A stretch of 64,000 bases of DNA from IMG/VR virus record IMGVR_UViG_3300050343_000199, positions 1-64,000 of that record. One strand, 5' to 3'. The notes beneath the pieces were generated by a model. That model was not told the origin of the DNA and made no database searches. It was given only the letters and a program-made list of their open reading frames with translations. Position 1 is the stretch's first letter. Every line of letters starts with the position of its first letter. Positions 5,283-38,510 of this stretch are shown piece by piece. Made by a program: the position numbers and the translations under genes. The DNA comes from a virus.

Positions 5283-5461
5283 ATATCCCTAAAATAAAAG
5301 TCAACTTTAGTGAGCCCTGTTAAGGGTGGAGTCTCACCTCCCTCAGCCCACTCCATACAAAACCTATGTATTTGATCACATGAATTGACATGACGAACAC
5401 CATATATTCTTGCGAACGATGACATAGCAAAATTATATTTTGATTTAATATGTGGTTTCAT
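5258..5461 (-). CDS. Hypothetical protein, 67 residues
   Basis: A small soluble protein with two cysteines (NSCDQ, RFCMEW) and a Tyr/Phe-rich C-terminal half (VDFYFRDIW). Start ATG at 5461 overlaps the end of the 73-residue gene by 17 bases; its end overlaps the coiled-coil gene by 25 bases. It is part of a chain of overlapping small genes downstream of the dehydrogenase fragment. No domain recognised. Confidence 0.6.
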   Translation of the reverse strand: MKPHIKSKYNFAMSSFARIYGVRHVNSCDQIHRFCMEWAEGGETPPLTGLTKVDFYFRDIWTGKLQD

Positions 5462-5666
5462 ATTGTTGAATTAATCTTTGGGTTTGTTTTCTATCAGACC
5501 CACAAGGAGCATTCCTTAGACACATAAGAATTAATTCGTCATCACTGATAGAGGGTTTAATTGTAAACCCCCACTTATCAACTTCACCTTCTACAGGTGC
5601 TTCAACGTAATCAAATTCGTGTGGCATTACCTGGTGATAGCGATTGGAAAATTTTAGAACATACAT
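5445..5666 (-). CDS. Hypothetical protein, 73 residues
   Basis: Begins MYVLKFSNRYHQVMPHEFDY and has an acidic middle (EAPVEGEVDKWG) and a helical C-terminus. Its first 56 bases overlap, in another frame, the last codons of the dehydrogenase fragment, suggesting that deletion or recombination joined this gene to the truncated one. I recognise no family. Confidence 0.6.
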   Translation of the reverse strand: MYVLKFSNRYHQVMPHEFDYVEAPVEGEVDKWGFTIKPSISDDELILMCLRNAPCGSDRKQTQRLIQQYETTY

Positions 5667-6087
5667 TTACAGCATGGGTTGCTCCATATACTCCAGAGAA
5701 GATATATGAAATACCTAACTTACTACAATACTTTTGAAGTTCCTGACATTTTGAAATGTCACTAGTGCTGTAATCAATAACAATATCACCCTCCTCAAGT
5801 AATGGTAGCAACTCATCTAGAGTGTCTTCTGCCTTTTGCTCTGGACATGTCATCTGAAAAATACCAGGAATTTTTCCTGCACTAGTAAACTTATTCCCAT
5901 CAGATTTAACTGCTCGGACAAGATACTCTATTGAAGTTACACATCCACTAAGGTGTCCTGCTTCATATTGTCCACAGGCATTCTCATAGTTAGTACTACT
6001 GTAACCCCAGACTTCAATACCCTTAGCAAGCATACGGCGAGCCATACCTTCACCAGTACGACCTAACCCAATCATTCCAATTTTCAT
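5611..6087 (-). pseudogene. gnd: 6-phosphogluconate dehydrogenase, N-terminal fragment
   Basis: Encodes 158 residues resembling the NAD(P)-binding domain of 6-phosphogluconate dehydrogenase, the decarboxylating step of the oxidative pentose phosphate pathway that some cyanophages carry. The N-terminus MKIGMIGLGRTGEGMARRML holds a Rossmann GxGxxG (G7, G9, G12), and an IVIDYSTSD segment follows at about residue 108. The frame stops soon after a degenerate version (SGVYGA) of the family's SGG-containing motif. Cyanophage and bacterial enzymes are about 300 residues or longer; the catalytic lysine and the whole C-terminal helical domain are absent, so dehydrogenase activity is not expected. It may be a decaying remnant, or a retained single-domain NADP-binding protein. 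The lack of internal stops suggests recent truncation or selection on the remnant. Confidence 0.7.
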
Positions 6088-6096
6088 TTAATTAAC

Positions 6097-6420
6097 TCAA
6101 TTTACATGTACAACGCCGGTCATACCAGCGCCTTGATGAGGACCACAGAAGAAATTATAGTCCCCTGCGTCAGCAAATACAACGTCTTGTGATTCTCCTG
6201 GAGCAAACAGTAATGCTTCTCTAGACAGGTCAGGACGTGCCTCAACAATAATATTATGGGGAGGTAATGATTCATTGATAAAATGAACCGTATCACCTGC
6301 AGAGATTGTGATCTCATTCGGTGAGAATGCTAGGTTACCATTAGCACCCATTGATACATCAACTGCCCATACAGGAGCAGCAATAAAAAGAGTAAAAAGA
6401 AAACTAATAATAAATTTCAT
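6097..6420 (-). CDS. petE: Plastocyanin
   Basis: Soluble type-1 copper protein that carries electrons from cytochrome b6f to photosystem I in the thylakoid lumen; in cyanophages it is an auxiliary photosynthesis gene. A signal peptide (residues 1-19, ending PVWA) would direct export. The copper ligands are H55 (in PPHNI), C92, H95 and M100 (CGPHQGAGM, the C-x2-H-x4-M loop of plastocyanins). At 107 residues, about 88 mature, it is close to full size and looks functional. It lies 10 bases upstream of the dehydrogenase fragment and just downstream of a small membrane-protein gene, within the gp16-gp17 island. This is the strongest evidence for a cyanobacterial host. Confidence 0.95.
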   Translation of the reverse strand: MKFIISFLFTLFIAAPVWAVDVSMGANGNLAFSPNEITISAGDTVHFINESLPPHNIIVEARPDLSREALLFAPGESQDVVFADAGDYNFFCGPHQGAGMTGVVHVN

Positions 6421-21514: not shown

Positions 21515-24500
21515 TTAAATCATCCAAACATATGTGCGAGGTGGTTGGAACAACTCAACTTGTACAATTCCGAATCCACTAATTGCAATTGAACCACTTG
21601 CAATATAAGGAGCACGTGCAAATGCCTCATCTCCATTAATAAATCCAAACAACGTTCCAGATCCGGCATAAGCACGGGATCTGATGGTTGTACTAATACC
21701 ATTAACATTAATTTTAACGAATGGTTGCTCAGAGAATGTAAGTAATGGATCTCCGGATGTTCCTTGAAGTGTAAATTTGCCGGGAGTACCAAGTTCTCTT
21801 GCGGTAATTTTTTCGGATATTCTTTCTCCCGCAAACGAGAAGAGCATTTGCTTCTCGTCTGGATTGACAGTGAGAGATTCTGCTGCACCAGATAGAGTTG
21901 GGATAATACCAAACCCAACAAAATCTCTTGCTCTTGTAGTAGTTGCATTTCCACTGAGAGGAATTGTTCCTTCTCCAGTGTGTGCAAATCTGACAAGAAC
22001 ACCAGCTTCTCCAGATGCTTTGAACAATCCACCCTGACTGACTTCTCTTGCAGTTGTATTTTCTGTTCCTGCACCAATGAACGAGAAGAGCATTTGCCTC
22101 TCGTCTGGATTGAAGGTAACCGACTCTGCAGATCCCGATAGTTTTCTGAGTGAACCAGAACCAACATGTAGTACAGAGATTTTGTTGATAGAATCTCCGG
22201 AGACCTTGAACAGAACTTGTTCTGTCTGTGGTACAACTCCAGTAGATTCTGATACTCCACCAAATCCGAAGAGTGAACCAGTACCAATAATACTGCGATG
22301 AGTGGTGAAGAATACTTTGCCACTGATCTTCGTCTGAACAAATGGTTGTTCTGCGAACGTAAGTAATGGATCTCCAGATGTACCAGAGAATGTAAATGTT
22401 CCACCTTGACTGATTTCTCTGACAAGAATTCTTTCTGTACCTTCTCCTGTAAAGGAGAAGAGCATTTGCTTCTCGTCTGGGTTGAAGGTAATAGATTCGG
22501 CACTACCTGCAAGAGCAAAGATATTACCAGATCCAATGTTGTTCGGAACAAACTTCTCTGTAACAACACCAGAAATTTGAGCAGAACCAGAACCTGTGTA
22601 TACACTGGTAAGATTTTCTTGACCTTCTCCAGTAATATCAACTTCAATCTGTTTGATTTCAGTAGCACTGAAGGATTCTAATGCTTCCCCAATGAAGGAG
22701 AAGAGCATCTGACGTTCATCTGGATTAAACGTTACAGATTCTGCAGCACCATTGATAGCGAAGATATTACCTGATCCGATGTTATTAGGAACATATCGGA
22801 CAAATACATCACCAGAAATTCTTAGATCAGCTTGTAGTTCTGGCGATGCAGTGAAGGATTCTGATAGACCACCAATTCCGAATAGAGAACCAGTACTAAA
22901 TTCAACAATAGATGTAGTCTCTGCAATTCTCGTTCCAGTAAACGAGAAGAGCATCTGTCTCTCTTCTGGATTGACAGTAAGAGATTCTGCAGATCCGGAG
23001 AGTGTTTTGAGTGAACCAGAACCATTGTGTAGTAGACTGAAGTTTGTTTTTGCTTCACCACTAACTGGGATAGTACCAGTAACAACCCAAGATGGTTGCC
23101 AATCAAAGGTCTCAAAGTCAGATAGCGCACCTCTGCGAATTCTGATTGCTTTTTCAATACCAACATAGTTCTCGGTATGAGTCTCTTTTCCTTCTCCAAT
23201 AAAGGAGAAGAGCATTTGTTTCTCTTCTGGATTGACAGTGAGAGATTCGGATGCACCAGAGAACTTCCTGAATGTACCAGTACCAACAACACTTGGAACA
23301 TAATGTGTCTTGGCAATACCACTGACAGGAATAACTCCAAATGGTTGCTCTGCAAATGTAAGGATCTGAGGAGTTGTATCTCCAGATAGTCTGATTTCAG
23401 TTCCTTCTTCTGGTGGATTGGCAGAGAATACTTCTTCGGATGTACCACCAAATTTGATATGTGCAGTAAATGCCGGAAGTCTCTTGGTGAGAGACTCGGA
23501 ACTAATTCCGTTAGAGAAGATAGCACCACTTCCAATAAAGTCTCTTGCTCTTGGAGTTGCAGCAACACCAGAAACATTGATAGTTCCAAATACAAAGTGA
23601 TGAACAAGTACACGTTCAACCAGATTATTAACAGTGAATAGACTTCCTGTTCCTGTGTATGGAACAGTAAAGCTTTCTGCGAGAACACCAGATAGTTTGA
23701 TGTCTGTGGTAATATCTGGTGGGTTGAATGATACTGCTTCCGCTGCACCATTGATTCCGAATAGTGAACCAAATCCTGTAAATGCTCTTGCTCTTGGAGT
23801 TTCTGCAATTCCGGAAACTGGAATTGTACCTTGAGATACCCAAGAAGGTTGCCAATCGTAAGTAACAAATCTGCTGAACGGACCAGGAGATACTTTGAAT
23901 AGAAGTTGTACTTCGTCTGGTGAGTATCTTCTGCTTTCTGTGGCACCACCGAATCCGAATAGAGATCCACCACCAAATGTTCGTAGACTGAATAATGGAA
24001 TCGCTGCATTGCGAACAAGAATCGGTGGAGATATATTGTTCCATTGAGGTGGAACAACAACGAATGCATCTCCAACAATCTTGATGACTGTACTTTCCGT
24101 AAATATAGAAGTATTACGAATGTACTTCTCAACCAGTGTACCCTTGAGTGAATCAAGTTGACCGAATGGACAGACAAGACCAGTAGTATCAAGGATATGT
24201 CCGTAATCTGTCAGTCCATCTTCTGTATCTGATACATCCTGATAGTCTGCGAATACTGTTGGTACAGTTGTAAATGCAGTTAATGTATAAGTTACTCCAG
24301 GATCAATTGATAATGTAGATCCTAGAGTTACCTTTGTGCATCCAGAAGACGATGTGGTATTTGTAGAAACGACCCCATCAACATCAACACATACACTATT
24401 TGCAGAAAGATCAACGATTCTTCCATAATCAAGTTCCGGTTCGTCTCTACAGAGATCCATACTGTAAACTTCAGTATGCTTCTCTTCTGAAAGTTCACTG

Positions 24501-27500
24501 AGTTCTGGTTTCTTGGAACATAGAGTAATAGAACCAGTAGTCTCATATGCATATTGAACTCTAAGATCTCCACCACTAACTGCGAATAGAGAACCAACAC
24601 CTTCATGTGCAAGACAAATTCCTGGATCTCCAGATGTACCAACGAATGTGAAGATTGGTTCTTCGGTAGGAGGAACTGAAGTAGTAGACTCTGCTGTTCC
24701 TGTATATCCAAATAAAGTTCCTGTTCCCTTAATACCAACGGTAATACCAATCGCAGTATCACTACGGAATCCGAATAAACCATCACCTGGTTGTATTAGA
24801 CTGAAGTTAGTCTTGGAATTTCCGCCAAGTTTGATCTGACCACTACCAATTTCACTAGCAAATAGTGGGGAGATTGCAACACCACTAATATCAATAAATC
24901 CACGACCGTTATAATTTGGAGTGAATTTAACATCACCAACTCCAAAGATATCAATCTGACCGTAGATACATGCAGGTAATCCTTGTCTTGGAGTTCCAAG
25001 AATATGACCATGATCAACTAGAGGTGAAGCATTCTCTGCAACAAATCCATAATCCAGAGTAGAAGATGGAACTGTGTATTGTGGAGTAATGGTGTAAGTA
25101 ACACCAGGATCAACTGCTAAGGAATTGAGTACCTTGGTGCATCCAGTTGCAGACGTGGTATCTGTAGAAATAATACCGTCAACATCAACACAAGAAACTG
25201 CATTCGGATCAATAATAAATCCGTAATCTGGTTCGGTGAATGGTGCAATAGAACTACAGTTGTAACTGTAAACCTTGACTTCCTCAAGATTGTTGAATCC
25301 AAAGAGTCCACCAGAACCAACGTAATCGTATACAGTTCTTTCAACTGCAGTTTGTAGAGTGAATAGAACACCACTACCAATCCAGTTAGGATTGAATGCA
25401 AACGTTGCTTCTCCAGTAAAGGAGAATAGAAGATCTCTTTCGTCTGGGTTAAAGGTAACAGAATCTGCAGCGCCACTGAGAGTTGGGATAAGACCATCAC
25501 CAAGTATACCAACGCCAATTCCAATCTGAGATTCACTATGGAATCCAAATAAACCATCACCTGGTTGCAGTAGACTAAAGTTGGTAATGGAATCACCACC
25601 AAGTGTTTTGATGCTTCCTGAACCAAATACAGTGACATCAAGAGGAACTCTACCTTCACCAAAGATACTAATGCCACCCTGAGATATCCAGTTAGGTGCA
25701 AGACTATTAACAGATTCACCTGTGATATCAATATGACCGTAAATACATCCTGGCATTCCGAGACGTGGAGTACCAAGAATATCTCCAAAGTCTGCAAGAG
25801 GAGCTGCGTTCTCTGAAGTTAATCCATAATCTAAGACACTAGATGCAATAGTATTCTGAGGTCTTACTGAATAATTAACACCTGGATCAATTGTTAACGA
25901 ATTGAGTACCTTGATGCATCCAGACGTTGTTGTTTCACTCGTAGAAATAACACCGTCAACATCAACACATGCAATTGCTCCTGTGTTGATAATAAATCCA
26001 TAGTCGTTCTCTGGGAAAGGAACGATAGAACTGCAGTTATAATCGTATACTTTCTTCTCTTCAAGATTATTAAATCCGAAGATTCTTCCAGATCCAACAT
26101 AGTCATATACAGTTTTCTCAACTGCAGTTTGTAGAGTGAATAGAACACCACTACCAATCCAGTTGGGATTAAAGGAGAATGTTGCCTCTCCAATAAGAGA
26201 GAACAATAAATCTTTTTCTTCTGGATTAAAGGTAACGGACTCTGCAGAACCATTAATACTTGGAATAAATCCTGTTCCGGTAATTCCGGCAGTAATACCA
26301 ATTTGAGTATCACTACGGAATCTGAATAAACCATCACCTGGTTGCAACAGAGCAAAGTTCGTGATGGAGTCTCCACCAAGTGTTTTGATACTTCCTGTAC
26401 CAAATACGGATACATCCAGAGGAACACTAGCTTCACCAGTAAGTTTACTGATGTATCCTCTACTTGTCCAAGTTGGATTAAACGCAAACTGCGCTCCATT
26501 TTCTGGATCAAGATGGAACAATCCAAACGGAATAAGATTGCTAGTCGTTAAGATATTACCAAAGTCTACCTGTGGTGCAGCAGATTCTGATATTAGACCA
26601 TAGTCAATAAAGTTACTAGGAGCATTAGCACCTAGACTTACATCATAAGTTGTTCCTGGATCAATACTCGCAGTTGATCCCACACGTACAATACATCCGG
26701 AAGATGTTCCAGATAATGTTCCTGATACATCTTCAATATCACTTGGATGACATATAGTTAGATAACCATAGTCTGCCTTAGAGAATTCAATGATACTATC
26801 ATTGATGTATCTTTCTGTATGTTTTTCGTCTGATAGTTCAGGAAGTTCTGGTTTTCTGCTAACCAGTTTAAGTCCACCAGATCCAACGAACGCATTTGTA
26901 GCGCGTTGCTGTCCATTAGATAGAGTGAATAGATCTCCAAATCCTGTTTCATGTACAAGAGTAATATCTCTTGCAGCACCTGTAACCTTACTAATATATC
27001 CGCTACTAGTCCATGTTGATACGAATGCATCATCTGTACTTGCAATCGTAAATAGAGTACCAGAACCAAAGATTCCAATACCAATACCAATACCCGAATT
27101 TCCAAGTATGGAGGTAGTTCCCGCACCGTCGTGCTTGCCAGAAAATACCCCCAGACTTGTACCACTAAGACCTTTGACTTTTCCATCAACGATATAACCG
27201 TATACTGCTGGTGAAGTCTGTCTACCAAAGGTAAACGCAATACCTGTACCTTCGTATGTGTTAGTCGCCTTCCAAGACGCTTCGCTAACAACTTTAACAA
27301 ATCCGAAAGATTCTACATTAGTTACATAAACAACTCTGCCGTAATCTTCTAGTGTGGCATTGATATCTGAAATATTACCAAAATTTATTGTTGGTAATAC
27401 TGGAGTTGTTGTATGTGTATATGTTACTGATTTTAATCCATAGTGATCCCAATTATTTCCAGTATGAGATGGTTGTATTAACCTGAATTGTGTTCCCGCT

Positions 27501-28036
27501 GTCCTCGCTACAGAAGGAATTGTAATTTCTACAGATTTTAAAGTATTAAATGTAGTGTCATTATGCGCTACTACAGTATCAATAGAAGTCCACAAACTTC
27601 CATTATAATACTCTAAGTATAAACTCTCGTTAACAGTATCAGGATCTTCTCCACCATTGGCATCATTGCCTCTAATTACTTCAAAGGTTAGTGAAGAATT
27701 AACATTATTTGGTAAACTAAACTCTACTATTCTGGATGCTGCGGTACTGCTGTTGAATCTAATATGTCTACCAATATTAAATCCACCAGTTGATCCTGTG
27801 CCTGTACCTGAATTTGTTAAAAATGTATTTGTTAAAGTAGCATTTAAATTATCTACTGCTACAGTTTCAGTTGCAGTTACTGGAGTATTATTAAATGCTA
27901 ATGAACCATAATCAAGTTCATTGTACCGATCAATGATACTTGGTTCATAAACATATGAAAAGCTGCCCAAACCCTCACTCGCAGCGCGAATGATTGATGG
28001 AAATATTCCTTGTGTATTATAGGAATAAACGGACAT
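21515..28036 (-). CDS. Giant repeat-containing virion protein, 2173 residues
   Basis: A very long, almost entirely beta-strand protein. Three units of about 260 residues, starting at GSIKTLGGDSITNFALLQPG-like sequences near 26420, 25640 and 24860, are followed by a C-terminal zone of shorter units of 45-60 residues. Each short unit carries an AES.T.NP.E.QMLFSF-type sequence; six have MLFSF exactly and several have LLFSF, LLFSL or VLFKV. Strands alternate as GSGSLF...SG.A, suggesting stacked beta sandwiches along a fibre. There is no recognised enzyme or binding motif. It begins after a hairpin terminator-like sequence and ends just before a late promoter. Long tail fibre or whisker is the likeliest role (inference). 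Confidence 0.8.
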   Translation of the reverse strand: MSVYSYNTQGIFPSIIRAASEGLGSFSYVYEPSIIDRYNELDYGSLAFNNTPVTATETVAVDNLNATLTNTFLTNSGTGTGSTGGFNIGRHIRFNSSTAASRIVEFSLPNNVNSSLTFEVIRGNDANGGEDPDTVNESLYLEYYNGSLWTSIDTVVAHNDTTFNTLKSVEITIPSVARTAGTQFRLIQPSHTGNNWDHYGLKSVTYTHTTTPVLPTINFGNISDINATLEDYGRVVYVTNVESFGFVKVVSEASWKATNTYEGTGIAFTFGRQTSPAVYGYIVDGKVKGLSGTSLGVFSGKHDGAGTTSILGNSGIGIGIGIFGSGTLFTIASTDDAFVSTWTSSGYISKVTGAARDITLVHETGFGDLFTLSNGQQRATNAFVGSGGLKLVSRKPELPELSDEKHTERYINDSIIEFSKADYGYLTICHPSDIEDVSGTLSGTSSGCIVRVGSTASIDPGTTYDVSLGANAPSNFIDYGLISESAAPQVDFGNILTTSNLIPFGLFHLDPENGAQFAFNPTWTSRGYISKLTGEASVPLDVSVFGTGSIKTLGGDSITNFALLQPGDGLFRFRSDTQIGITAGITGTGFIPSINGSAESVTFNPEEKDLLFSLIGEATFSFNPNWIGSGVLFTLQTAVEKTVYDYVGSGRIFGFNNLEEKKVYDYNCSSIVPFPENDYGFIINTGAIACVDVDGVISTSETTTSGCIKVLNSLTIDPGVNYSVRPQNTIASSVLDYGLTSENAAPLADFGDILGTPRLGMPGCIYGHIDITGESVNSLAPNWISQGGISIFGEGRVPLDVTVFGSGSIKTLGGDSITNFSLLQPGDGLFGFHSESQIGIGVGILGDGLIPTLSGAADSVTFNPDERDLLFSFTGEATFAFNPNWIGSGVLFTLQTAVERTVYDYVGSGGLFGFNNLEEVKVYSYNCSSIAPFTEPDYGFIIDPNAVSCVDVDGIISTDTTSATGCTKVLNSLAVDPGVTYTITPQYTVPSSTLDYGFVAENASPLVDHGHILGTPRQGLPACIYGQIDIFGVGDVKFTPNYNGRGFIDISGVAISPLFASEIGSGQIKLGGNSKTNFSLIQPGDGLFGFRSDTAIGITVGIKGTGTLFGYTGTAESTTSVPPTEEPIFTFVGTSGDPGICLAHEGVGSLFAVSGGDLRVQYAYETTGSITLCSKKPELSELSEEKHTEVYSMDLCRDEPELDYGRIVDLSANSVCVDVDGVVSTNTTSSSGCTKVTLGSTLSIDPGVTYTLTAFTTVPTVFADYQDVSDTEDGLTDYGHILDTTGLVCPFGQLDSLKGTLVEKYIRNTSIFTESTVIKIVGDAFVVVPPQWNNISPPILVRNAAIPLFSLRTFGGGSLFGFGGATESRRYSPDEVQLLFKVSPGPFSRFVTYDWQPSWVSQGTIPVSGIAETPRARAFTGFGSLFGINGAAEAVSFNPPDITTDIKLSGVLAESFTVPYTGTGSLFTVNNLVERVLVHHFVFGTINVSGVAATPRARDFIGSGAIFSNGISSESLTKRLPAFTAHIKFGGTSEEVFSANPPEEGTEIRLSGDTTPQILTFAEQPFGVIPVSGIAKTHYVPSVVGTGTFRKFSGASESLTVNPEEKQMLFSFIGEGKETHTENYVGIEKAIRIRRGALSDFETFDWQPSWVVTGTIPVSGEAKTNFSLLHNGSGSLKTLSGSAESLTVNPEERQMLFSFTGTRIAETTSIVEFSTGSLFGIGGLSESFTASPELQADLRISGDVFVRYVPNNIGSGNIFAINGAAESVTFNPDERQMLFSFIGEALESFSATEIKQIEVDITGEGQENLTSVYTGSGSAQISGVVTEKFVPNNIGSGNIFALAGSAESITFNPDEKQMLFSFTGEGTERILVREISQGGTFTFSGTSGDPLLTFAEQPFVQTKISGKVFFTTHRSIIGTGSLFGFGGVSESTGVVPQTEQVLFKVSGDSINKISVLHVGSGSLRKLSGSAESVTFNPDERQMLFSFIGAGTENTTAREVSQGGLFKASGEAGVLVRFAHTGEGTIPLSGNATTTRARDFVGFGIIPTLSGAAESLTVNPDEKQMLFSFAGERISEKITARELGTPGKFTLQGTSGDPLLTFSEQPFVKINVNGISTTIRSRAYAGSGTLFGFINGDEAFARAPYIASGSIAISGFGIVQVELFQPPRTYVWMI
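21770..26900 (-). repeat. In-frame coding repeats of the 2173-residue gene
   Basis: The DNA itself repeats: a block encoding NP.E(K/R)QMLFSF recurs near 21835, 22085, 22455, 22705, 22945 and 23205, with related blocks near 25430 and 26200, and the larger units recur with a period of about 780 bases. Repeats keep the reading frame, indicating expansion by unequal recombination. Confidence 0.8.
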
Positions 28037-32855: not shown

Positions 32856-34670
32856 TTAACTTAATCCAGAACCCGAAATATATGCAGTATTAGCAGCAGT
32901 AAAAACAAAAGTGCATGCTCCACGTTGAGCTAAAATTCTAGTACCATTAGTACCATCAGCAGTATTATATAAAGTAAGTCCGGAACCTTCTATAATGTTT
33001 ATATCACTAGTAGTTTGATTTACTATAGTAACCATATCACCAGCAGTAAATCCAGTAGGAACAGTTATACTTTGTGATGCAGCAGACTGAACTATCATTT
33101 TACCAGCATCACCAGTAACCAATGTATAAGCACCACTCTTAACTTCAACGCCAAGTCTTCTTAGTGGACCTATTGAATCACTTATAGATCCTACTGACAA
33201 TGTATTAGTAGTAGTAGCACCTCTACCAGTTACACTATCAAGAGTGTCAATTTCATTGGCAGTATTTCTAGCACGAACAGTAATTGTTCCGACCATACCA
33301 GAGTGATTACCACATTGATAAACATAAGATCCAACAGATCCTCCATTACTTATCTGTGGTGTCCAAGATACTTGCCCTGATGTAGCACCTTGATTAGAAA
33401 CCGTTGGGTTGCTAACAGAAGTGCCACCAGAAGTATCTCTTATATAAAATGGATGATTTGTCCCACTACTTATAACAAATTGAATAGTATCTCCTTCATT
33501 GATAGTAATAGGTGCATCATCACCAGAAACGCTACCTAATCTATCATTACCATTTAAATTATATTCTGAGGTGGATGGTGCTGTTACTGCTATACTATAA
33601 ATCTGACCTGTAGATCCACTTGATTGATCAACCCATTGTACATTTCCTGCACCATCACTAGACAATACTTGTTCACTAGTTCCATTGGTAGTTGGATAAG
33701 TTAAACCACCAGCAGTCAGAGAACCAGTGATAGTTACACCAGAAGATGAAAATACTGCTCTATCAGTTAGACCATCCTGACTTGTAATTCTAACCGCAGG
33801 ACCAGAACCAAGAATTAAATTCGCGCTACCACCAGGAGCTCTTATATAAAATGTATCGGTAGAGGATGTATAAGAGATACGACCATCTTGACTTGCACCA
33901 AAATTTAATACTACATCATCAGCAACTTGAATTTGATCATTGAAATCCGTGCTTCCACCAAAAATAAGATTATTATTAGTGCTAGATCCTCTACCAGTTA
34001 CAGTGTCAAGTGTATCTACTTCTGTATATGATGTTAAATACCCAGAATTAGCATGATCACCCCAACCATATGCAGTATCCCAACTAGTTATCTTAGCAGT
34101 AGTAACACCAGCAGCATCACCAAGTGAGGTTAGATATGCTGATAAATCTGGTGGAGTATATGAAAATACTCCATTAGAATTATTGTATGTTAGTGCAGCA
34201 GTACCAACAGAGTTACTAGTAACAGATAAACTTGCTAGTGAAATACCACCACCACCGCCACCTGATCCAGTACCTGCAGGACTAGCATCTACCCATTGGG
34301 TTGAATCTCCATCATTATAATATATTTTTAAATATCCAGTATCGGATTGCCACCAAAGATCTCCATCACTAGGTGATGTAGGTGCAGTATCTGATGCTGT
34401 TACTGAAGCACCACCCCCATTTCCAAGAGAAGTTAAATATCCTGCTTGACTATGATCTCCCCAACTATATGCAGTATTCCAATTAGCAATATTTATTGAA
34501 GTGATACTACCTGCAGTAGAAGAAGTAAATATTGGGTCAGATTCATTTGTACTACTAGAAACTCCAGATCTCCAAGTAAGTCCATCCCATAACCATGTTA
34601 TGTTACCAACAGTGTGTGTATAGCTACCATCTGTTGGTTGCCCTGAGGTTGCGGGAAAATTGATTGCCAT
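32856..34670 (-). CDS. Tail fibre with embedded cupredoxin-like domain, 604 residues
   Basis: Start is ATG 34670 (MAINFPATSGQPTDGSYTHT), chosen because the 744-residue fibre at 36276-38510 starts with the same leader and because a late promoter lies between the longer GTG start (34745) and this ATG. Modules in order: leader; NWNTAYSWGDHSQAGYL; LWWQSDTGYLKIYYNDGDS; a second NWDTAYGWGDH-type unit; beta-helical region; then a cupredoxin-like domain (about residues 360-470) with possible copper ligands H406, C453, H456 and M459 (QCGNHSGM). A C-terminal beta-domain follows. Such a domain in a fibre is unusual. Copper binding is a prediction; structural use without metal is possible. Confidence 0.85.
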   Translation of the reverse strand: MAINFPATSGQPTDGSYTHTVGNITWLWDGLTWRSGVSSSTNESDPIFTSSTAGSITSINIANWNTAYSWGDHSQAGYLTSLGNGGGASVTASDTAPTSPSDGDLWWQSDTGYLKIYYNDGDSTQWVDASPAGTGSGGGGGGISLASLSVTSNSVGTAALTYNNSNGVFSYTPPDLSAYLTSLGDAAGVTTAKITSWDTAYGWGDHANSGYLTSYTEVDTLDTVTGRGSSTNNNLIFGGSTDFNDQIQVADDVVLNFGASQDGRISYTSSTDTFYIRAPGGSANLILGSGPAVRITSQDGLTDRAVFSSSGVTITGSLTAGGLTYPTTNGTSEQVLSSDGAGNVQWVDQSSGSTGQIYSIAVTAPSTSEYNLNGNDRLGSVSGDDAPITINEGDTIQFVISSGTNHPFYIRDTSGGTSVSNPTVSNQGATSGQVSWTPQISNGGSVGSYVYQCGNHSGMVGTITVRARNTANEIDTLDSVTGRGATTTNTLSVGSISDSIGPLRRLGVEVKSGAYTLVTGDAGKMIVQSAASQSITVPTGFTAGDMVTIVNQTTSDINIIEGSGLTLYNTADGTNGTRILAQRGACTFVFTAANTAYISGSGLS

Positions 34671-34692
34671 TTCTAAAATGCTCCTTCCGTGA

Positions 34693-34700
34693 TATTTATT
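34693..34700 (-). promoter_or_regulatory. T4-type late promoter core (AATAAATA)
   Basis: AATAAATA on the minus strand in the gap between the propeller gene (ends 34712) and the fibre ATG at 34670; an AAGGAG ribosome site lies between. Confidence 0.65.
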
Positions 34701-34711
34701 ATTGTTGATCC

Positions 34712-36253
34712 TTATTTGTGTGTCACGTATGGACCATATGTCCACTCAGCAGGTTTAGATGCTACACCAATTCTAATTTCAATTACACCTTGTGGTGCGG
34801 GGGAACTCTTTTCAGTTCCAGGTGGCATATAAAGATGTCCATTTGGAGCAGGAATTAAACTACGACCATAATCAGTTCCAGGTCCAGTCGCATCATTCCA
34901 ACCCGGCATATCAATTAATTCGTAACCATGTTCTGCAGGACAAGCTGCTGCAGCTGCAGTATTACTTTCTCCAAATCCAGTGTAAATTTTGAGTAGTTTA
35001 TTATTATTACCGGGAGCAGCATAAATGTTACCATCTGCTCCAATTACACAACCTACATGTCTATGATCTGTACCGTGAGTTTGATTATTAACATCAACTG
35101 TACCAATCGCTGCATTAGTTTTATCTGTATTTGATAAATTAGCAAGTACAGTTCTACCAGTTAATTGATGGAAAGTATTTGCAATAGGATCATACTTCAT
35201 AATCCATGGATATTCATCGGGTAAAATATAAATCATACCATCAGGACCCATCTCACATGCTTGTGTGAGATTAGTCATAGTAAGTGAATTCATCAAGAAC
35301 CAACTATCAGCTGAAGTTGAAGATCCGTTATCCGCATATGCTTTATGTGTGAAGTTTACAGTATCTGCAACTGGATCAATAACACCAATATACCTATGGT
35401 AGTTACCAATCATATAAATTTTTCCATCTGGTCCTAGACAAGCATCGCTGAATTTATGGCGACCAGTTCCATTGGTAGAATTCCATGGATATGAACCACC
35501 AGTATCATCAACCAAATTACCAATGTTACCAGTCGTTGCGCCAACTTGAATAGCTTCATACGTTACTGGATTGTATTTTATAACACAATCGTGGAAATCT
35601 GGAACCATATAAATGCACCCATTATTGGGAGCTACAATTCCAGTGCAGAACATAAACCCTGCTTTGGAGTTCAAACTATACGACCCTGGAGAGGAGAATA
35701 GATTATCACCAATAGTGTTCTCTGCTGTTACACTACCAAGTACTCTAGGTCCACCGGGATATGGTTGCCAGTTGGTATGGTTCAGAGGATCGTAGTGATA
35801 TAAATCGTCTCCTCTAGCAGGAACATTAACTACAGTACCATTTGGAGTTGCGACCATTGCTGAAGTTTTACTAGATGCCATATCCTGACCAGCACTGGAG
35901 TGGATATATGACTTTCTGGTATTAGGATCAATCATTAATGTAAATACTGCTCCCTGTCTTCCGCAATAAATTTTACCATTGTTAGTGACAGTACCACCTT
36001 TCCATCCATACTCATCACGATATGGTCCTCTAGTATAAGTTTCATATCCAGTTATAGCACCAGTATTAGCATCAATAATTGGTGTATTCTGAATAGGAAT
36101 TTCAGACCAAGACCCTAAAGCACTAGGAACAACGGATGGGAATGAATTATTACCAACAAAATCATCCTTATTCATATGGTATTGGTGACTGCCACCTTGC
36201 CAAGCATAAGCATAATAATGCTCGGTTCCTACTTTTTGCCTTGCGTTAGTCAT
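34712..36253 (-). CDS. Putative beta-propeller virion protein, 513 residues
   Basis: At least six repeats of the form G.DG.IY..P....W.MKYDP occur: NNGKIYCGRQGAVFTLMIDP, APNNGCIYMVPDFHDCVIKY, GPDGKIYMIGNYHRYIGVID, GPDGMIYILPDEYPWIMKYD, GADGNIYAAPGNNNKLLKIY and APNGHLYMPPG. Spaced about 60-90 residues apart, they indicate a six-bladed NHL- or SMP30-like propeller. No signal peptide or catalytic site is evident. Lying between two fibre genes with a late promoter just upstream, it is best read as a receptor- or glycan-binding head. Confidence 0.75.
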   Translation of the reverse strand: MTNARQKVGTEHYYAYAWQGGSHQYHMNKDDFVGNNSFPSVVPSALGSWSEIPIQNTPIIDANTGAITGYETYTRGPYRDEYGWKGGTVTNNGKIYCGRQGAVFTLMIDPNTRKSYIHSSAGQDMASSKTSAMVATPNGTVVNVPARGDDLYHYDPLNHTNWQPYPGGPRVLGSVTAENTIGDNLFSSPGSYSLNSKAGFMFCTGIVAPNNGCIYMVPDFHDCVIKYNPVTYEAIQVGATTGNIGNLVDDTGGSYPWNSTNGTGRHKFSDACLGPDGKIYMIGNYHRYIGVIDPVADTVNFTHKAYADNGSSTSADSWFLMNSLTMTNLTQACEMGPDGMIYILPDEYPWIMKYDPIANTFHQLTGRTVLANLSNTDKTNAAIGTVDVNNQTHGTDHRHVGCVIGADGNIYAAPGNNNKLLKIYTGFGESNTAAAAACPAEHGYELIDMPGWNDATGPGTDYGRSLIPAPNGHLYMPPGTEKSSPAPQGVIEIRIGVASKPAEWTYGPYVTHK

Positions 36254-36272: not shown

Positions 36273-36279
36273 TATTTAT
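36273..36279 (-). promoter_or_regulatory. T4-type late promoter core
   Basis: ATAAATA on the minus strand, 20 bases before the ATG at 36253. The TAA of the 744-residue gene (36276-36278) lies within it. Confidence 0.65.
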
Positions 36280-38510
36280 GAAAGAATTCTCCAACCATAG
36301 AATGCTCCACAGAAAACAAGTTTAATTGATTGCCCATTTTTATTAACAACAAAAGGCATTCCATGCATATCTTCACCCCAATATTTACCAGTTGTATTGG
36401 TTGTTGGTAACCAATACACACTAGATCCATTTTGATCTCCAGTCCATGGAGCAGGTCCAGTTTGTTGAATTCCTTGTTCAAGGGAGGGGTAGATTACAAT
36501 CGGACAATTTGTAGCATTACCAGGATTATAATCATATGATGGATACCCAGGACTAAATGCATTCGGGAAAGTACCATCATCATTTCTATTAAGTTTTCCA
36601 GTACCAACATCCAGTATCGTAATAGTATCTCCTTCTCTGCACATATAATGGATTGGAAGAACAAGAGATCTAGGAATTAATGTGTTAACTGCGATAATAC
36701 TATTCAAGTGCTCGGCACCTAATTGTAGGTTTACACTGGCGTCGTGTTTATATAATGTTTTTCCAGCACCACCAATTCCAACCTTAGATGATTTATAAAC
36801 CATCATACCATTAGATCCACCAAAGGAAGCAATGACATAGTACAATCTTCCTGTAGCACCACTAGCGGTGACCGTTTTAAATACTAAATTCTCTAATTGT
36901 AATCCTGTTCCCGACGTATACGGTTTAACTACAATTTCTTGAATATCGTTTGTTAGAGTTGTAGTAGTTACGTAATTTCCACCATTATATCCAGGTTGCA
37001 CATTTCCATCATATCCAATAGTCAATTCATTAAAATAGTCAACATTTAGTGGATTTGTAAAAGTTAATTCAATAACTCCATTATCAATAGAACTAGCAAC
37101 ATTCAACCAAGTATCAAACCTTGCATCAAATGCCAATGATACTGGATCTGGATGATCTGGGGGATTTGCAATTGGAGGGAGATTACCTGCAGTGTCAGAA
37201 TATGCAGGCATATACTGAGGTAAATTATTCCGTGCAATATTGTGTCCGACGATGGAACTCCCGTCCCCCCAATTCAGAGGATCATCTCCAGTATCTCCAT
37301 AAGACCATTCACCTCCAATATTTGAATTTGTTACGTCAATAGTTGGTTCAGCATTTATCGGATCTTCCACATAAATGACTCCACTCATTTCAGAATGATC
37401 ACCACATTGATAATAATAAGTACCAGTAGCTGCTGGTGTCCAAGAAATACTAGCAGTTCCCTCTCCTGTAGCTGCTGGATTGCTTACACTTGCACCTCCA
37501 TCACTAACTCTGATGTATAAAGGATGAGATCCACTTAGAGCAGAAGTATCAAATGTAACTGTGTCTCCAGTATACATTTTAACGGGAACATCATTTCCAC
37601 CTACTTGGCCATATCTATCATTACCAGATAAAGTATAGTATTTGCTATATGTGGTATTAGTAGCACTAGGTACAGTAATATCAAATGTTTCTGGTGATAC
37701 TAAGACACTACTAGTACTGCTACCTCCGCCAGTTTGATCTGCTACCCAAGCATAATCAGTTCCATTCCAACTTAAGATTTCTCCGGAAGATGCACCACTA
37801 GTATTCAAATGTACATCAACACCAGCGTTGATAGTGGACTGTAGTCCACCAATAGATGCTCCACTAAAACTAATGGTACTATTTTGAAAGTCAATAGAAG
37901 TTCCTGCTGCAGTAATACTACCACCAACATCAAGACTCAAACTTTCAGCAGCAATCCTACCAGTAACATTAACACCCTGTGCGGAAGTTTCTAATCTTTT
38001 TCCGTTAGATCCATAATGCAACTCAACTGCGCCGCCATTGAGAATTGATATTCCGCCACTAGCACCACTACCTTTTAGATAAACATCATATGATGCAATA
38101 GTACTAGTATTGGGTTTAATAGTTAAACTTCCTGTTGTACCACTTACATTCCAGTCAAAGAAAACATCAGGATGTCCAGATGCATGTCCAGTTCCAAGTC
38201 CTAATCCTGTGTCATCTTTTAGTACAAGATAGTTTGTTTGAGAACCTGGATATCCAGACACACTAGCGTTGTATACAATGCCGTCGTTTGGAGTCCAATT
38301 GGTTCCATCATACGCAAAAAATTCACCAGTTGCTAAACCAGTTGTATCTACATTTCCGATCTCATTAATATCAGTTATACCACCACCGCCTTGGCCACTA
38401 ACAGAAGCATTCCAACTAACTCCGTTCCATTTATAAGTAACGTAACCAACTACGTGGGTAAAAGAACCATCAGTTGCTTGTCCCGTAGTTGATGGGAAAT
38501 TGATTGCCAT
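36276..38510 (-). CDS. Tail fibre with embedded cupredoxin-like domain, 744 residues
   Basis: Leader MAINFPSTTGQATDGSFTHV is shared with the 604-residue fibre, as is a W.GVSW module. The middle is a cupredoxin-like domain (about residues 273-383: KYYTLSGNDRYGQVGGNDVP through SGVIYVEDP) with a complete ligand set H329 (GSHPLYIRV), C369, H372 and M375 (QCGDHSEM). The C-terminal half contains a beta-jelly-roll-like region (FDTWLNVASSIDNGVIELTF) and a final domain ending FVVNKNGQSIKLVFCGAFYG. The domain is as well conserved in its key residues as in the 604-residue paralogue although surrounding modules differ. Role of copper in a virion fibre is unknown. Confidence 0.85.
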   Translation of the reverse strand: MAINFPSTTGQATDGSFTHVVGYVTYKWNGVSWNASVSGQGGGGITDINEIGNVDTTGLATGEFFAYDGTNWTPNDGIVYNASVSGYPGSQTNYLVLKDDTGLGLGTGHASGHPDVFFDWNVSGTTGSLTIKPNTSTIASYDVYLKGSGASGGISILNGGAVELHYGSNGKRLETSAQGVNVTGRIAAESLSLDVGGSITAAGTSIDFQNSTISFSGASIGGLQSTINAGVDVHLNTSGASSGEILSWNGTDYAWVADQTGGGSSTSSVLVSPETFDITVPSATNTTYSKYYTLSGNDRYGQVGGNDVPVKMYTGDTVTFDTSALSGSHPLYIRVSDGGASVSNPAATGEGTASISWTPAATGTYYYQCGDHSEMSGVIYVEDPINAEPTIDVTNSNIGGEWSYGDTGDDPLNWGDGSSIVGHNIARNNLPQYMPAYSDTAGNLPPIANPPDHPDPVSLAFDARFDTWLNVASSIDNGVIELTFTNPLNVDYFNELTIGYDGNVQPGYNGGNYVTTTTLTNDIQEIVVKPYTSGTGLQLENLVFKTVTASGATGRLYYVIASFGGSNGMMVYKSSKVGIGGAGKTLYKHDASVNLQLGAEHLNSIIAVNTLIPRSLVLPIHYMCREGDTITILDVGTGKLNRNDDGTFPNAFSPGYPSYDYNPGNATNCPIVIYPSLEQGIQQTGPAPWTGDQNGSSVYWLPTTNTTGKYWGEDMHGMPFVVNKNGQSIKLVFCGAFYGWRILS

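Follow-up and report, generated by a model that had tools for sequence, protein, structure and literature searches.

The window analyzed here is a stretch of 64,000 nucleotides (bases 1-64000) from a virus record of 192,818 bases. Within its fiber cluster lies a gene encoding a 604-amino-acid tail-fiber protein, fiber 2 (32856..34670, minus strand, stop codon included). In the list of open reading frames, this gene sits in a larger frame (32856-34745, minus strand), and the 604-residue translation is obtained when the frame is read from the ATG of a conserved MAINFP start at 34670. This start is common to fiber 2 and the neighboring fiber genes, and the protein is a member of tail-fiber families in PHROG (phrog_9729, tail fiber, E = 5e-72; also phrog_15006), so that both criteria for a tail-fiber assignment, family membership and location in a fiber cluster, are met. 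The tail-gene cluster of the window also contains a 2173-amino-acid protein with many short degenerate repeats (21515-28036).

Fiber 2 contains a cupredoxin domain of about 116 amino acids (residues ~352-467; 33270..33617, minus strand), as evidenced by a family profile match (E = 8.9e-45), an AlphaFold2 (AF2) model, and Foldseek. Translation and alignment place four putative metal ligands in this domain, all encoded on the minus strand: a first histidine, H406 (33453..33455); a cysteine, C453 (33312..33314); a second histidine, H456 (33303..33305); and an axial methionine, M459 (33294..33296). The resulting C-x2-H-x2-M spacing is that of amicyanin. A first-pass annotation, made from sequence alone, had named the same four residues in the 604-residue fiber, and the translation bears this out. 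The span that it gave, 33255-33610, covers the domain, while the profile match itself runs from 33270 to 33617. Its statement that the domain has similar flanks in two fibers of the window also held, as both of the flanks that it quoted were found.

The second of these fibers, fiber 1, is a 744-amino-acid protein that has the same MAINFP start (36276..38510, minus strand, from the open reading frame list and translation). Its cupredoxin domain (37362..37700, minus strand; profile E = 2.1e-41) has a full set of ligands by translation, namely, H329 (37524-37526), C369 (37404-37406), H372 (37395-37397), and M375 (37386-37388). The two fiber domains are only 44% identical to one another and yet keep all four ligands, as had been claimed. 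They are not recent duplicates of each other, given that both show a higher identity, about 56%, to domains of other phages and that the two are placed in different, weakly supported regions of the domain tree.

The window also encodes a phage plastocyanin, petE, of 107 amino acids (6097..6420, minus strand; Copper-bind E = 4e-20), which lies outside the tail-domain family. The claim of three cupredoxin-type proteins thus holds for the window, but across the whole genome the count rises to four proteins, which together hold five such domains. The fourth is a subtilase outside the window (141328-143721, minus strand; G000:C1; L030:7329-9722; Peptidase_S8 E = 3e-26) that adjoins another MAINFP fiber gene. 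It carries two cupredoxin copies, one nested in the other, with the insertion falling just before the first histidine of the host copy; H, C, H, and M are complete in both. The petE loop, CGPHQGAGM, has the C-x2-H-x4-M spacing that the first-pass annotation reported, from which it had inferred that the fiber domains are not simple copies of petE. That conclusion stands, but the argument from loop length is weak because C-x2-H-x4-M and C-x4-H-x2-M also occur within the tail-domain family. What excludes petE as the source is instead the profile score, which is E = 0.09 for petE compared with 8.9e-45 and 2.1e-41 for the fibers. Beside petE, a short open reading frame (5445-6087) resembles by eye the N-terminal part of 6-phosphogluconate dehydrogenase and is possibly a remnant of the zwf/gnd/petE cassette described elsewhere (PMC3037559).

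Sequence and structure comparisons agree on the affiliation of the fiber 2 domain. A search with the single sequence already matched plastocyanins (E = 6e-4). When a profile of 40 family sequences was run against the Protein Data Bank (PDB), 118 sequences were matched at E<0.1, including plastocyanin, nitrite reductase, amicyanin, and rusticyanin; the best match was a plastocyanin (E = 4.9e-8), and at least 60 of the matches were cupredoxins or copper proteins, almost exclusively of type 1. In the hidden Markov model alignment to plastocyanin 2plt, the H, C, H, and M of the family fall on the 2plt ligands. AF2 predicted a confident beta-sandwich of nine strands (pLDDT 94.3, pTM 0.88), and Foldseek matched this model to small laccases, rusticyanin, and nitrite reductase in the PDB (E about 1e-4, probability 1.00, TM about 0.55). 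Among viral models, the best were in cyanophage fibers, gp9 connectors, and S8 peptidases. Fold, ligand order and register, and significant homology to solved type 1 copper proteins therefore all meet what is expected of a type 1 copper cupredoxin.

Curated models, however, do not claim the domain. It narrowly missed the PF00127 cut-off (21.1 bits versus 21.2; 17.1 for the whole fiber 2 protein), fell far below that of the plastocyanin equivalog TIGR02656 (28.2 bits versus 87.85), and was under the curated cut-off of the pseudoazurin model. Also, the fiber 2 copy was absent from the listed matches to amicyanin TIGR02657, although 29 of 40 family members match this model at E<0.1. By computation, then, the domain belongs with the type 1 copper cupredoxins in fold, homology, and ligands, but it is neither a plastocyanin nor an amicyanin by curated cut-offs, and no metal has been observed. 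The missed Pfam and NCBIfam cut-offs may explain why relatives carry hypothetical or immunoglobulin-like annotations.

Those annotations bear on one reading of the domain, that it is a metal-free, immunoglobulin (Ig)-like spacer in which a beta-sandwich serves as filler and the ligands are mere structural leftovers. In its favor, public annotation labels relatives as immunoglobulin-domain proteins, and a few copies in tandem arrays still align without ligands. The pattern of conservation argues against it. In an alignment of 40 sequences with 30 to 55% identity to the query, no columns are invariant except those of the four ligands, the proline after the first histidine, and one tyrosine (H, P, Y, C, H, M). 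Of 215 distinct copies, 212 retain the complete set, 211 of them with HCHM in register and one with an extended C-x4-H loop. The other three each lack three or four ligands, and no copy shows the loss of a single ligand. Degenerate copies with three or four ligands lost together were seen at L250:2440-4938, where two lie beside an intact copy in one protein, and at L242:5215-6138.

Because ligand motifs had been used as search patterns, recruitment bias was countered in two ways. With a ligand-masked profile, H, C, H, and M were found in 36 of 36 nonredundant copies. With a query limited to an N-terminal stretch of 49 amino acids that holds no ligand, 67 distinct copies were recovered; the set was kept in 66 of them, four with C-x2-H-x4-M, and the remaining copy is circularly permuted, with its ligand set still complete. 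Site rates point the same way, with the ligands ranking 1, 2, 3, and 7 of 107 (rates of 0.158 to 0.166, compared with a median of 0.71 for hydrophobic core columns). The P value of the ligand-rank test, about 1.4e-6, should be read only as an indication, given the relatedness of the sequences and some recruitment bias that the sets share. In close orthologues, the ligands are constant despite variation at the positions that separate them; dN/dS values from these orthologues were noisy (0.25 to 1.2) and were not relied on. A chance motif is ruled out by the masked-profile, invariant-column, PDB-profile, and site-rate results. The first-pass annotation had proposed selection on the metal-binding residues and had named as its refutation a finding that ligands are no more conserved than the core; the comparison did not show this, and the proposal is supported. 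With ligands that evolve more slowly than the hydrophobic core and, as described below, persist through circular permutation and nesting, the metal-free spacer is very unlikely.

The module recurs well beyond this genome. P-HM1 and MED4-213 are among the marine T4-like cyanophages in which relatives of the fiber domains occur, and profile matches were found in 12 of 13 phage genomes examined (one to five in each, plastocyanins counted). The module lies at the C-terminal end of the gp9 connector, inside proximal fibers, in subtilases, and in a podovirus. A tblastn search with the gp9-type domain returned 347 phage records, nearly all from marine cyanophages. The N-terminal part of gp9 returned 306 records, which include eight Aeromonas and four Methylophilales phage records, whereas these phages are absent from the list for the domain. 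For this reason, the domain in gp9 is likely an addition made in marine lineages. On the domain tree, the class of host protein switches at least 17 times. This tree is poorly resolved, with 113 columns and few supported forks; it includes no plastocyanins or halocyanins, and profile scores were used in place of a tree containing them because resolution was already this low. When fiber 2 is compared with its relatives, the domain has diverged to a different degree from the sequence on either side of it, which suggests recombination.

Some copies have been rearranged more deeply. In 30 contigs (L276-L305), a cyanophage subtilase carries an inserted copy that is circularly permuted, in some cases with a second one, and all ligands are kept. 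Permuted copies at one or two subtilase sites also occur in L237:2151-4754 and in S-CAM1, where the ligands are kept in permuted order. The model of a permuted copy is confident (pLDDT 92.7); Foldseek, which aligns chains in sequence order, found nothing for it. Nested and permuted copies such as these lend themselves to the study of how a metal site can persist when the topology of its fold is rearranged.

Outside phages, marine Bacteroidetes have small, secreted single-domain relatives as well as long domain-bearing proteins, and 10 of 198 genomes of the phylum match. One relative from a marine Bacteroidetes genome (L194:7926-8321) is a 131-amino-acid single-domain protein with a signal-peptide-like start and no Pfam match at E<0.01. 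A plasmid search with the gp9-type copy gave no match.

Evidence that such domains reach the virion is limited to annotation. In S-SCSM1, the domain is intact in gp231, the long tail fiber proximal subunit, whose annotation reads "(virion protein)." Mass spectrometry of S-SCSM1 virions detected 45 phage proteins (PMC9602691), and we take the annotation as a record of that detection, which is likely but inferred. That fiber 2 is present in the virion of its own phage is likewise an inference from relatives, among which only S-SCSM1 gp231 is so annotated. The gp9 protein of S-SM1 also has an intact domain; the virion proteome of this phage has been measured (PMC3037559) but was not used as evidence that gp9 is in the virion. 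The domain is absent from the genome of S-CREM2, whose virion proteome has also been measured (PMC10665884).

Taken together, the computational evidence shows that a cupredoxin domain is encoded here and that its type 1 copper ligand set (two histidines, a cysteine, and a methionine) is complete, although its occupancy by copper is inferred. It shows, too, that this domain is a module built into a tail-fiber protein of a marine T4-like cyanophage, that it is homologous to type 1 copper proteins, that its near-invariant ligands are kept or lost as a whole, and that it recurs in many marine cyanophage tail proteins. That the metal site is real is very likely; no metal has been observed, and the convergence of the ligands is inferred from sequence and the predicted fold.

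The identity of the metal is less certain. The site could hold another soft metal, such as zinc, or could merely scavenge or detoxify copper, without the tail depending on the metal for its work. Metal on tails is plausible in general because iron on paired histidines has already been proposed for the fibers of marine phages (PMC11705849). Nevertheless, a cupredoxin fold that bears Cys-His-Met-His is a hallmark of copper binding, and the profile matches are nearly all type 1 copper proteins, which makes this alternative unlikely and copper the likely metal, by inference and without binding data.

Regarding function, we lean toward a copper-type module with a structural or adhesive use on the tail rather than a redox one, a preference that has no direct evidence and rests on inferred binding. 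In this scheme, the site would bind a single copper ion, which it would probably acquire once the virion has left the reducing cytoplasm. The module would serve the adsorption apparatus as an adhesion or spacer domain exposed at the surface, comparable to Ig-like domains of other phages. Copper would tie the histidine, cysteine, and methionine loops together, keeping a small beta-sandwich rigid and protease resistant outside the cell. Against it, sequence and AF2 cannot show metal occupancy, and virions form in the cytoplasm, an environment in which a type 1 site may remain empty.

A redox module is a competing but less likely possibility. Here, tail copper would cycle between Cu(II) and Cu(I), passing electrons to or from host-surface or periplasmic partners, or would act as a host-sensing trigger in adsorption or ejection. 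Electron-transfer proteins (plastocyanin, amicyanin, and rusticyanin) have this same ligand set, the methionine is as invariant as the other ligands, and the small secreted relatives in marine Bacteroidetes resemble mobile carriers. However, there is no sign of a redox partner or of a route for electrons, and a domain found in proteins as different as proteases and baseplate connectors fits a general module better than a single reaction. Electron transfer or sensing at the host surface thus cannot be excluded but is without evidence. Bolder still is the possibility that marine cyanophage tails carry type 1 copper centers, that copper, as a redox-active or otherwise needed cofactor, acts in host adsorption or genome delivery, and that virions bind copper in seawater.

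No description of cupredoxins in phage tails was found in the open-access full text searched; subscription papers were not covered, and absence from the literature is unproven. What is new, by computation, is the wide spread of a cupredoxin module among the tail proteins of marine cyanophages (gp9 connector, fibers, and subtilases). That these tails bind copper is suggested but unproven. If they do, about 340 records of sequenced phages, along with many environmental contigs, would represent tails with blue-copper-type sites, and this would point to a new means by which adsorption proteins may be stabilized or act.

Several known systems offer comparisons. Ig-like domains of tailed-phage structural proteins are promiscuous beta-sandwich modules on exposed virion proteins, much like the tail cupredoxins, but they are not known to have a conserved metal site. 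The cyanophage petE product, encoded as an auxiliary metabolic gene (PMC3037559), is likewise a cupredoxin and is carried by the same phage, yet it differs from the tail domain in being stand-alone, with a signal-peptide-like start, the C-x2-H-x4-M loop, and the marginal profile score given above. With type 1 (blue) copper proteins at large (plastocyanin, amicyanin, rusticyanin; PF00127 Copper-bind and kin), the tail domain shares the cupredoxin fold and the order and register of His-Cys-His-Met. Those proteins are small secreted carriers, whereas the tail domain is embedded in fibers, baseplate connectors, and subtilases, has conserved HPF/HPL and GxDRxGxVSG features, and, in its fiber 2 copy, stays under the PF00127, TIGR02656, and pseudoazurin cut-offs. 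Finally, the closest idea in the literature searched concerns the iron-binding HxH motifs of phage tail fibers, such as those of T4 gp37, which underlie the Ferrojan (Trojan Horse) hypothesis, in which virions are proposed as trace-metal carriers (PMC11705849). Both systems place conserved metal ligands on marine phage fibers; in HxH fibers, iron lies between histidine pairs along the trimeric fiber, whereas the tail domain is a folded cupredoxin with a Cys-Met-His-His site. If it does bind copper, it would be the copper counterpart to the iron-in-phage-tails hypothesis and might count as a new ligand for copper in the trace-metal chemistry of the ocean.
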